This document shows, one piece after another, positions 6,682 to 22,781 of a stretch of 64,000 nt of DNA (position 1 is the first letter of the stretch; every line of letters starts with the position of its first letter). The translations under genes and the position numbers were made by a program. The stretch is from Bhargavaea sp. CC-171006 (GTDB lineage Bacteria; Bacillota; Bacilli; Bacillales_A; Planococcaceae): contig NZ_QUZH01000033.1 of the NCBI RefSeq assembly GCF_009761675.1, positions 186,001 through 250,000 of the forward strand. Direction: 5' to 3'. A model generated the notes under the pieces. The model was not told the origin of the DNA, did not search any database, and worked only from the letters and a program-made list of their open reading frames with translations.

Positions 6682-6838
6682 TGGTGTATCCCCCTTATTC
6701 TTACGGTAGTCGAACTAATTGTATAACATCCGGGCCATCATTGAAAGCAGATTCTGAGCTTTCTGACTTGCCGCAACGCGTTATTCTATGCAGGAATCAG
6801 GGAATACATAAAACACTATCGACAGAAGAGGTGTGCTG

Positions 6839-8086
6839 ATGACGAAACAGATTCCAGAGGTCAAGATGTTCGACAGTACGGTAAACGTGGTCACAGAAGG
6901 ATACAACTTTGTCGGCAAGCGGATGTCCCAAATGGATACCGACGTGTTCGAGGCGAGGATCCTGGGTAAGAAAATGATCGTCATGACCGGACGTGACGCA
7001 GCGGAATTGTTTTATGACGAATCCAAGATCAAGCGGGAAGGCGCGATGCCGAAACGCATCCAAAAAACGCTCTTCGGCGTAAATGGAATCCATACGAAGG
7101 ATGGGCAAAAGCACAAAATCCGGAAAGCGATGTTCATGTCGATGATGACCGACGAGAGGCTGGCACATCTCCGGACGATCCTTCAGGAAGAGTGGAAGCG
7201 CAAGGGCCTGGAAATGGAGCAGAAAAAGCGGGCCGTCCTGTTTGATGAGTCAGAGGAACTGATCTTGAGGGCCATGTGCCGATGGACAGGCGTCCCGCTG
7301 ACGGACGCTGAATCCTGGCGGCGTGCCTATGAAGTAGGTGTAATGATTGACGCAGCAGGCGGTGTCGGCAAACGGTACCGCGAAGGGGAAAAGGTTCGGA
7401 CAGAGACAGAAGGATGGATCCAGGAAGTGATCGAAGCTGTCCGGGACGGCAGGATGAAGACTGAAGAAGGTACTCCGGTCCATACGGTCGCTTTCCACGA
7501 AGAAGAAGGGGAACTGCTGGATGCCCACATGGCAGCCATCGAACTCCTCAATGTCATCCGTCCTGCCGTCGCGGTTGCACGTTTTGTCGCGTTTGCGGCT
7601 CTTGCACTTAATGATTTCCCTGAATGGAAGGGAAAACTGTCCACGACAAAAGAGCTGAACAACTTTGCCAACGAAGTCCGGCGATTTTACCCATTCACGC
7701 CTTTCCTTCCGGCAGTAGTCAAGGAGGACTTTGAATGGAAGGGCTATCTGTTCAAAGAGGACCGTCATGTGATCTTGGATGTGCATGGCATCAACCGGGA
7801 TCCGAGAATCTGGGAAGAGCCGGAACAATTTAATCCCGACAGGTTCAATGACTTTGTCGATGACCGCTTCAACTTCATCCCGCAGGGTGGCGGAGATCCG
7901 GATACCGGCCACCGGTGCCCGGGTGAACCGATTGCGGTCATGATTATAGAAGAAAGCGTGCGGTATCTGACAGAAAGCCTGTCCTACGAAGTTCCTGAGC
8001 AGGACCTCACCATCAACATGGTCCGCATGCCGACCCTTCCGAAAGACCGCTTCGTCATGGAAAATATCAGGGTGACGGGCAAGTAA
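6839..8086 (+). CDS. cypC: CYP152 fatty-acid peroxygenase P450
   Basis: Haem-thiolate enzyme that uses H2O2, not a reductase chain, on long-chain fatty acids, giving alpha- or beta-hydroxy acids or, in the OleT branch, terminal alkenes. The 415-residue protein closely resembles B. subtilis P450-BSbeta. The haem-binding GHRCPGE gives the ligand Cys360. The carboxylate-binding Arg-Pro pair is at 241-242 and Phe79 is present. Residue 85 is His, as in the decarboxylase OleT, where P450-BSbeta has Gln. I chose ATG 6839 over GTG 6833 because of the AGAGG spacing. No redox partner gene is adjacent, which fits a peroxygenase. Confidence 0.92.
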   Translation: MTKQIPEVKMFDSTVNVVTEGYNFVGKRMSQMDTDVFEARILGKKMIVMTGRDAAELFYDESKIKREGAMPKRIQKTLFGVNGIHTKDGQKHKIRKAMFMSMMTDERLAHLRTILQEEWKRKGLEMEQKKRAVLFDESEELILRAMCRWTGVPLTDAESWRRAYEVGVMIDAAGGVGKRYREGEKVRTETEGWIQEVIEAVRDGRMKTEEGTPVHTVAFHEEEGELLDAHMAAIELLNVIRPAVAVARFVAFAALALNDFPEWKGKLSTTKELNNFANEVRRFYPFTPFLPAVVKEDFEWKGYLFKEDRHVILDVHGINRDPRIWEEPEQFNPDRFNDFVDDRFNFIPQGGGDPDTGHRCPGEPIAVMIIEESVRYLTESLSYEVPEQDLTINMVRMPTLPKDRFVMENIRVTGK

Positions 8087-8950: not shown

Positions 8951-8958
8951 ATAAAAAG

Positions 8959-8994
8959 GAGAAACCGCCCGATCGCCGGATCGGGCGGTTTCTC
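8959..8994 (+). terminator. Terminator after the hotdog thioesterase gene
   Basis: A perfect 16-bp stem (GAGAAACCGCCCGATC and its complement) with a 4-nt loop starts nine bases after the stop codon. The T run is short. Confidence 0.75.
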
Positions 8995-9191
8995 TGAAAA
9001 CGGAAAATTTGCTGATTCAGGTACTGCTCTGACGAAGAAGAAAATCCATCCCGTCGGTTGCAGGTGATCGGCCAAACTGCCGTCGCCTTTCCGGCAAAGG
9101 TGTCAAATCGAGATTGACCACCAAATTTGCAGTCAGGCTGTCAAATGCACTTTCACAAAAAACTTACTGTTCGCCGCTGCCCATGTCGGAC

Positions 9192-9303
9192 GTCCTCCGG
9201 GTTTCCATTGGCACCATCTCCTGAGTCACATGCAAGGATTGTACGGAAAAGCGATCCGTTCGTTCTCTGCTGAAAACCTAAGCCTGTTGAGGCGGGTTTT
9301 CTT
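9192..9303 (+). ncRNA. Candidate small RNA, tandem unit 1
   Basis: First of two full units in the gap 8995-9714. It begins with a C-rich head (GTCCTCC, then TTTCCAT and ACCATCTCCTGAGTC), has a hairpin ACGGA...TCCGT at 9243-9259 and ends in a terminator-like stem with AAAACC and GGTTTT outer arms at 9273-9300. Unit 2 keeps the same order of elements with different stem bases. No convincing promoter was found. It could instead be an attenuator. Confidence 0.4.
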
Positions 9304-9305
9304 GT

Positions 9306-9411
9306 GTCCTCCCGGTGTCCATCTTCTACCATCCCCTGAGTCCATTGCATAAGCTGTCCGGATTCACTCCGGTCAATTGGCAGAGATCTACTTCAATCTG
9401 CCTATTTTTTT
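9306..9411 (+). ncRNA. Candidate small RNA, tandem unit 2
   Basis: Second unit, 114 bp after the first by the GTCCTCC head. It repeats the head (GTCCTCCCGGTGTCCAT, then ACCATCCCCTGAGTC), has a hairpin CCGGA...TCCGG at 9358-9372, and ends with a clear terminator: GGCAGA and TCTGCC arms (9379-9402) followed by TATTTTTTT. The stem bases differ from unit 1 but still pair, which favours a structured RNA. Confidence 0.45.
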
Positions 9412-9445
9412 GTCCTCCTGGTTTCCATGATCCATCATCCTTTTT
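9412..9445 (+). repeat. Partial third copy of the tandem unit
   Basis: A third GTCCTCC-GG-TTTCCAT head starts 106 bp after the second and then diverges into a small ATCATC...GATGAT hairpin. From here to 9714 I see no gene, only a TTTACCC...GGGTAAA stem near 9610-9633 followed by an AT-rich tract. Confidence 0.4.
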
Positions 9446-9714
9446 GATGATTCGTCCTGCGGATTATCGGTCCGGCCGACTCGGATCATGCGGCGCTGAC
9501 GAGAAAGAACTCCGTCACGTAATGCAAATTTTCCGCCAAGGCTGTGCAGTTCTCCGCCTTCGGCATCTTATACCGATGCATTCAGCGGTGTTCGCCTTGT
9601 ACTATTACTTTACCCGGCAGGAATTGGGGTAAACATTTTGTGTATTATTTTTTATGAATTTTATTATGGGAAAAAGACAACTCTCTTTTCATGCCGAATG
9701 AAACCTGTTACCAT

Positions 9715-9732
9715 TATCTTTAATTCGAGATA
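9715..9732 (+). promoter_or_regulatory. MhqR-type operator
   Basis: The inverted repeat TATCT-n8-AGATA with TTCG in its right half, followed by A residues, matches the MhqR operator known from B. subtilis (tATCTcgaAtTCgAGATa) except at two central positions. It lies 18 bp before the esterase start, where a repressor would block expression until quinones or electrophiles appear. Confidence 0.7.
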
Positions 9733-9750
9733 AAGAAAGTAGGGAACCAA

Positions 9751-10353
9751 TTGAAGCACATCTATAAAGAAGGCAAAGAAGGCAAACCGACGCTGTTGCT
9801 CCTGCATGGAACCGGAGGAACAGAAAATGATCTCCTCCCGATCGGCAATTTCCTCGATCCGGATGCCGGTATCCTGAGTGTCCGGGGAGAAGTGCTGGAA
9901 AATGGCATGCCCCGATTTTTCAGGCGCCTGGCAGAAGGCGTGTTTGACCTGGAAGACCTGGTCAAGCGTACCGAAGACCTGAATGCCTTCATCGACAAGG
10001 CTGCAGCAGATTATGGGTTTGACCGAAAAAATGTGATTGCCGTCGGCTACTCAAACGGGGCCAACATAGCGGCCAGCCTAATGTTCCATTACGACGATGC
10101 ATTGAAGGGTGCAATCCTCCACCATCCGATGGTCCCGATACGTGATAAAGAACTTCCGTCACTGGATGGAACAGCTGTATTCATCGGTGCGGGTACCAAT
10201 GATCCCATCTGTCCGATGGATGAAGCGAAGGATCTGCAAAGTCTGTTGGAAGGAGCGGGTGCAGATGTCCAAATCCACTGGGAGAACTTTGGCCACTCAC
10301 TGACCCAGACAGAAATTCAGGCGGCTGCGGCATGGTATCAAAATAAATACTGA
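9751..10353 (+). CDS. mhqD: MhqD-like carboxylesterase/hydrolase
   Basis: Alpha/beta hydrolase of 200 residues in the phospholipase/carboxylesterase group. The catalytic triad reads Ser101 (GYSNG), Asp151 (GTNDP) and His182 (GHS). The nearby LHGTGG forms the oxyanion loop. The TTG start is preceded by AGTAGGGAAC. The MhqR-type operator directly in front supports the MhqD assignment, a hydrolase induced by methyl-hydroquinone and related electrophiles in Bacillus. No mhqR gene is in the window, so control would be in trans. The natural substrate is not settled. Confidence 0.82.
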   Translation: MKHIYKEGKEGKPTLLLLHGTGGTENDLLPIGNFLDPDAGILSVRGEVLENGMPRFFRRLAEGVFDLEDLVKRTEDLNAFIDKAAADYGFDRKNVIAVGYSNGANIAASLMFHYDDALKGAILHHPMVPIRDKELPSLDGTAVFIGAGTNDPICPMDEAKDLQSLLEGAGADVQIHWENFGHSLTQTEIQAAAAWYQNKY

Positions 10354-22174: not shown

Positions 22175-22485
22175 TCCATCTGGCCTCCTGCCAATTTCGG
22201 ATTCAGAATATCGTTTTTGTGGTATAGGTCTTTGAACTCCATCTGCAGATTTATCTGCTTACCATTAACGTGCCGAGCTTCCAAAAGGTTTCGTAAATGT
22301 GTTATCTGACCAAATCTTGTTTTCAACAACCCTTTGCATTTAGTACTAAACAGCGCAGAATCTGCAATAAAAATTATGATTTTGAAGTAAAAGGTAATTG
22401 ACAATGTCGCTTTCCATATAATACATTACAAAAGCAGTGAAAAATGGTGAAGGAGGGCCGGCGTCACGCCAAAATCGGAAAACAA
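22175..22485. other. Intergenic stretch before the glmS ribozyme
   Basis: About 310 bases with no supported gene. It holds promoter-like elements for the glmS transcript: TTGACA at 22398-22403 and an AT-rich TATAATACATT block at 22417-22427, although the spacing to TATAAT itself is too short. Confidence 0.4.
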
Positions 22486-22645
22486 TCAAAAGCGCCTGAG
22501 CTGGGGAAATTAGAACACAGCCCCAGCAGACGAGGTGGAGGTTCATCGACAATTCGGCGGATGCCTCCCGACCGCGATGCCCGGTTGTCATGCTTTTCAG
22601 CAAAACACACAAGCGATTGTGTGACACAGAAGGGAAAGCCGGCAT
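22486..22645 (+). ncRNA. glmS ribozyme-riboswitch
   Basis: Self-cleaving RNA that uses glucosamine-6-phosphate as cofactor to cut and lower its own mRNA. The cleavage site is the A-GCGCC step at 22491/22492. The core follows in the right order: a P2 stem with GCTGGGG and CCCCAGC arms, then GACGAGGTGGAGGTTCATCG, ATTCGGCGGATGCCTCCCG, a variable stem and the closing GTGACACAGAAGGGAAAGCC. It lies 130 bp before glmS, whose product makes the ligand. A strong GAGCAGG...CCTGCTC hairpin follows at about 22651-22686. Confidence 0.93.
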
Positions 22646-22781
22646 CAATAGCCGCATACGGGAGCAGGAACTGCCTGCTCGTGCGGAATACCCCAACTTG
22701 CATGAACAGCGCCCACTGTCCGTTTTAAAAACGGAAAACCGGACGCTTATTTGACATTGACTGAAATCGGAGGAATTGAAT

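Follow-up and report, generated by a model that had tools for sequence, protein, structure and literature searches.

A large structured RNA, apparently under the control of SigB, in Bhargavaea and other Bacilli

A repeat-bearing region in the genome of Bhargavaea sp. CC-171006 is very probably best explained, as a whole, by one SigB-controlled, structured and mainly non-coding RNA that would be transcribed from the minus strand, act in trans and belong to an apparently undescribed family. In the prediction of the RNA itself and of its SigB-type promoter we have close to full confidence. The window analysed is a stretch of 64,000 nt (contig NZ_QUZH01000033.1, positions 186,001–250,000), to which all coordinates refer. 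The locus was compared with its counterparts in the other members of a set of eight genomes (Bhargavaea, including Edaphobacillus), and the eight loci were aligned in one orientation and read on the minus strand. The features of the RNA are listed in Table 1. Both of its ends (9602 and 8952) are predicted from sequence, the 5' end from the promoter distance and the onset of conservation.

Table 1. Predicted features of the RNA locus, in minus-strand 5' to 3' order
Feature	Position	Strand	Evidence and remarks
SigB-type promoter GTTTAC-N13-GGGTAA	9610–9634	minus	−35 and −10 boxes invariant in 8/8 congeners, spacer diverged
Whole structured RNA, ~650 nt	8952–9602	minus	5' end GUACAAGGC, 3' end in terminator U tract; conserved 8/8; ends predicted
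5' domain (R3): P1 CAAGGC/GCCUUG, then core UGCACAGCCUUGGCGGAAAAUUUGC	9524–9602	minus	R3 matches in host family and second family
P2 long-range closing helix, 5' strand	9523–9536	minus	Inverted repeat and compensatory changes
Hairpin P3 (UGACG..CGUCA)	9498–9516	minus	RNAalifold consensus, genus and family
Expanded variable domain, closed by CGCCGC/GCGGCG	9172–9495	minus	~360 nt, against 47–192 nt elsewhere
Module C: SD AAAGGA 9443–9438, mini-ORF 9428–9402 METRRTKK, stop	9402–9443	minus	SD, ATG and M(D/E)TRRT kept 8/8
Stem after module C, formerly read as a plus-strand terminator	9379–9402	minus	Compensatory GGCAGA/TCTGCC to GACGGA/TCCGTC
Module B: SD AGGGG 9337–9333, mini-ORF 9322–9278 MDTGRTQENPPQQA, stop	9278–9337	minus	Kept 8/8; convincing R1 matches in this genus only
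Module A: SD AGGAG 9222–9218, mini-ORF 9208–9164 METRRTSDMGSGEQ, stop	9164–9222	minus	SD and ATG kept 8/8
3' domain (R2): CAGUAAGUUUUUUGUG.AAGUGCA, then helices CUGAC/GUCAG and GCC/GGC	9069–9169	minus	R2 matches in 65/261 genomes
3' terminal hairpin CUGC(GACGA..UCGUC)GCAG	9024–9063	minus	Family consensus helices D2 and D3
P2 long-range closing helix, 3' strand	9000–9013	minus	Inverted repeat and compensatory changes
Terminator, 16-bp stem then CTTTTTATTT	8959–8994	minus	Stem conserved 8/8

The original prediction for this region was of likely duplicated small RNAs. The three GTCCTCC-led units on which it was based (at 9192, 9306 and 9412) are present and are conserved in all eight genomes; the 17-nt copies at 9192–9208, 9306–9322 and 9412–9428 are 88–94% identical to the reference copy. 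A 278-nt query found the region at 75–92% identity in each of the seven other genomes of the genus, and since it is kept there, the repeat region is not a product of chance. The same genome holds no second copy. Its own blast match (L002) lies, by reading, inside an aldehyde-dehydrogenase-like coding sequence, as another blast match (L016) lies inside a membrane-protein-like one. Both hairpins described within the units (ACGGA/TCCGT at 9243–9247/9255–9259 and CCGGA/TCCGG at 9358–9362/9368–9372) are present, with pairing conserved in the genus. The terminator-like stems fared unequally: that of unit 2 is kept, whereas that of unit 1 (9280–9299) is lost in the divergent congeners L013, L014 and L015. 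What remains of the prediction is an RNA feature with duplicated units; its strand, boundaries and number give way to three modules inside a single minus-strand RNA.

On the plus strand, the repeats would represent two or three tandem small RNAs, each with its own terminator and with a C-rich head able to pair with ribosome binding sites. Three C-rich heads are indeed present, and the stem at 9379–9384/9397–9402 is followed on the plus strand by TATTTTTTT and is maintained by a compensatory change in L014; however, any stem reads alike on both strands. The heads are the reverse complement of a Shine-Dalgarno (SD) sequence, an AUG and the first codons. Therefore, the analogy with the LhrC RNAs of Listeria, which are C-rich and pair with SD sequences, falls, the repeats carrying SDs on the other strand. 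Repeated units are common to LhrC and the present RNA, but the former are separate genes with their own promoters and terminators and C-rich anti-SD loops, whereas here one promoter and one terminator are shared and the transcribed strand is G-rich and SD-bearing. No sigma-70-like promoter was found on the plus strand between 8500 and 10500, all three matches being on the minus strand, and the isolated plus-strand units have unremarkable folding energies (z of −0.7 and −1.7). Given also that the unit 1 terminator is not kept, that helix variation is of the G-U rather than the A-C kind, and that promoter, terminator and family members all lie on the minus strand, we consider the plus-strand arrangement highly improbable.

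The promoter has the form GTTTAC-N13-GGGTA(A/T) in the genus, and its site at 9634–9610 is the sole match to GTTT-N13..17-GGGTAW in the 64-kb window. Conservation resumes 8 nt past GGGTA at GTACAAGGC, where transcription should start, and stops at the 16-bp terminator stem (8994–8959), which a U tract follows on the minus strand. The promoter expected of a SigB regulon member, GTTT-N13..17-GGGTA correctly spaced from the 5' end, was found in all eight congeners and in 74 of the 76 distinct family loci extracted for the scan, lying 8–10 nt before TACAAGG; the other two loci are off by one base. In the sigB loci of the three congeners that were checked, one matching promoter was present in each, at a fixed upstream place. 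SigB is encoded in all eight genomes of the genus, although its co-occurrence with the RNA is uninformative, because the factor is nearly universal in the host family (252 of 261 genomes). The RNA is apparently under the control of the general-stress factor SigB, from which we infer its stress control. Judged by the conserved promoter, 5' end and terminator and by G-U rather than A-C variation, the transcribed strand is the minus strand.

Covariance models were built from the repeat unit (R1), the 3' domain (R2) and the 5' domain (R3; E-values from a short calibration). Within the 261 genomes of the host family, R1 gave convincing matches in the genus only. R3 matched 130 of these genomes at E≤0.05 (123 at E<1e-6), and R2 matched 65, as a rule 70–130 nt downstream of the R3 match. 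A search of 398 genomes of the class returned R3 matches almost entirely from the host family. One match, however, pointed to a second family, where R3 was found at E≤0.01 in 26 of 159 genomes. The 12 second-family loci that were read contain the same core, 11 of them with a clear SigB-type promoter. The RNA family is present in well over a hundred species of Bacilli; outside the genus its members are 240–480 nt long and lack the modules. Ten weak R1 matches outside the genus (L043–L052, E of 0.003–0.04) were set aside, nine of the ten sequences having been read and judged unrelated, as were weak R3 matches in G095, G204 and G498 (L129, L130 and L128), in which the pattern used did not find the core. 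In some genomes of genus g4, two copies of the RNA lie 0.4–3.7 kb apart, each with its own SigB promoter (L094, L102, L113 and L140).

In the 19 loci whose surroundings were inspected, the RNA is a solitary element, flanked by a wide range of genes in varied orientations. As the neighbours vary, the RNA is not a cis element; no constant downstream gene on the same strand, as for a cis-regulatory leader, was seen in these loci, and the RNA has its own terminator. In Bhargavaea and two other genera, an oligoendopeptidase-F-like gene (identified by eye), often together with a 4HBT thioesterase gene, recurs near the RNA, which supports vertical descent. A mobile-element origin was considered and rejected, there being no match in plasmid or phage records or in viral contigs. 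Elsewhere in the window, the palindrome TATCTTTAATTCGAGATA (9716–9733), which we take to resemble an MhqR-type operator, lies just upstream of an mhqD-like gene (9751–10353), and a gene for a CYP152-type, CypC-like fatty-acid peroxygenase occupies 6833–8086 (557 of 600 bits, just under the NCBIfam cut-off).

Across the family, CACAGCCTTGGCGGAAAATTTGC is almost invariant, as is the core CACAGCCUUGGCGGAAAAUUUGC. Downstream of the core come a U6 element, which has an AAGUGCA segment, and, at the end of the RNA, CAAATTTTCCG. In the long-range helix P2, some 11 pairs are formed between CGGAAAAUUUG, close to the 5' end, and CAAAUUUUCCG, close to the 3' end; in the window it is an exact inverted repeat (9001–9012/9524–9535). 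Over the 72 RNAs used for helix statistics, one of its pairs is G-C in 48, U-A in 6, A-U in 4 and G-U in 6, and the whole helix contains 31 G-U cells and no A-C cell, which settles the minus strand. For all consensus helices the counts are 253 G-U against 68 A-C cells, in a structure that was itself predicted on the minus strand. Compared with shuffles, pairing was higher than in any of them for hairpin C4 (GGAACC/GGTTCC), helix D1 and P2, and higher than in nearly all of them for D2 and D3. Pairing in hairpin P3 (C1) did not exceed the shuffles and P1 hardly varies, so that for these two helices the argument is one of conservation. In almost all sequences, a GCAC ahead of the 3' strand of P1 is complementary to a GUGC that follows the U6 element; the two may pair as a pseudoknot. 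In the Bhargavaea consensus structure, 17 pairs have changed on both sides; the closing helix of the variable domain is likewise changed on both sides in distant congeners and reads GGACAATG/CATTGTC in L014. Four shortened members (L087, L088, L155 and L157) have either a very small 5' hairpin, the segment being 38 nt long in L088 and L157, or a strongly reduced 3' domain, of 64 nt in L088; the smallest form of the RNA may be represented by these.

What sets the Bhargavaea RNA apart is the stretch from the core to the U6 element, mostly about 80 nt elsewhere. SD-AUG modules are found there in every Bhargavaea sequence; in other genera only one SD-like match was seen, in a two-copy locus. On the minus strand each module reads SD, 9–11 nt, ATG and GA(A/C) ACC (A/C/G)GG AGG. 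The AUG and the preceding SD are kept in all 24 modules of the eight genomes, and nearly all modules begin M(D/E)TRRT, the exceptions being MDTGRT in module B of L001, METRRS in module A of L009 and L010, and MLARRT in module A of L013. Variation among AGG, CGG and AGA and between ACA and ACG preserves arginine and threonine. Predicted openness is higher at the SDs than on average over the transcript (0.57–0.99 against 0.36–0.40), but is not notably raised at the AUGs.

These features invite the reading of the transcript as a SigB-controlled mRNA that serves to produce three very small peptides related to one another, M(D/E)TRRT..., with the structure only modulating translation; the unbroken conservation of AUG and SD, the near-constant peptide start and the synonymous arginine and threonine variation all speak for it. 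However, the peptides have only 8–23 residues; about the first six codons are kept and the remainder diverges, leaving them unrelated past about residue 6, and the 3' parts of the ORFs form covarying RNA helices, the C-terminal codons of module A being one side of the helix that closes the variable domain. Because the divergent parts of the peptides lie largely in such helices, we conclude that the RNA structure and the initiation signals appear to be better conserved than the peptides. Moreover, other members of the RNA family are without such ORFs, and therefore the peptides cannot be the function of the family. A peptide mRNA is, in our opinion, unlikely.

Two further rivals would make the RNA a sponge. 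GGA triplets are over-represented (22–36 per Bhargavaea transcript against 16–21 in shuffles), most strongly in the distant congeners L014 and L015, and together with the purine-rich, SD-like segments this would suit an RNA whose GGGGA and AGGAGG segments titrate C-rich regulatory sRNAs of the RoxS/RsaE or FsrA type. A sponge, however, would need neither the AUG that is present each time nor its spacing from the SD, and no partner was identified, which leaves titration of this kind improbable. The same GGA enrichment could indicate a CsrB-like decoy for CsrA. Matches to the CsrA model TIGR00202 were absent from all eight genomes of the genus, while the controls (B. subtilis, E. coli and T. maritima) were positive; barring a divergent CsrA, such a sponge is excluded for the genus, and we give the idea practically no weight.

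Returning to the structured, mainly non-coding RNA, we propose that general stress would lead SigB to produce many copies of a stable molecule, which would act in trans by means of its invariant core; the probable binding partner is a protein or the translation machinery. That it acts in trans we find moderately likely. In Bhargavaea alone, the variable domain between P3 and the U6 element has grown about fourfold and contains three modules, each consisting of a hairpin, an SD, an AUG and (D/E)-T-R-R; our favoured guess is that these would serve as docking sites for 30S subunits or for initiating ribosomes, with at most very short peptides being made. Such engagement of ribosomes by the three modules is putative, and we put it forward with some doubt. 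More tentative still is the broader idea of a widespread class of SigB-controlled non-coding RNAs acting on the translation machinery in stress, to which Bhargavaea would have added three ribosome-docking minigenes (SD-AUG-Asp/Glu-Thr-Arg-Arg), giving a ribosome-capturing or dual-function RNA.

Searches of Rfam 15 at the gathering thresholds retrieved no family for this RNA from the window or from the eight related loci; the only match in the window was a glmS ribozyme riboswitch elsewhere (22480–22649, plus strand), well above its gathering score. Sub-threshold matches from permissive searches were judged to be due to chance. No description of the RNA was found in a literature search with most subscription papers outside its reach, and an earlier description is possible; the main text of the discovery paper PMC11109978 does not contain the genera looked for. 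The original statement that no described family matches the region agrees with these results. A SigB-type promoter is common to this RNA and to Listeria Rli47/SbrE, S. aureus RsaA and SbrA–C and the B. subtilis antisense RNAs, though stress control is deduced here; the present RNA has no gathering match to those of them that are in Rfam, a far larger conserved architecture and different host genera. The dual-function RNAs RNAIII/hld and SR1/SR1P are likewise structured RNAs holding short SD-bearing ORFs, but here there are three repeated mini-ORFs, confined to one genus, with a peptide conserved over about six residues. OLE, GOLLD, ROOL and raiA RNAs are hundreds of nucleotides long, have a complex conserved structure, their own transcription unit and variable neighbours, and a function that is not evident from sequence. 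The present RNA resembles them in size, conserved structure, separate transcription, varied neighbours and a function that cannot be read from the sequence, yet differs from them in matching nothing in Rfam 15 at gathering and in the SigB promoter that nearly all of its loci carry. As far as we have found, what is new is the RNA family, for which no known relative was retrieved, whereas SigB control and large structured RNAs without evident function are kinds already known.

In Gram-positive bacteria the general stress response is governed by SigB, and what has been described of the SigB regulon is mostly proteins. If the present interpretation is true, a major RNA output of the SigB response, in two bacterial families, is missing from the databases. 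The Bhargavaea version would then be a natural case of RNA growth by repeated initiation modules and would offer a direct handle on whether the RNA has a role at the ribosome.
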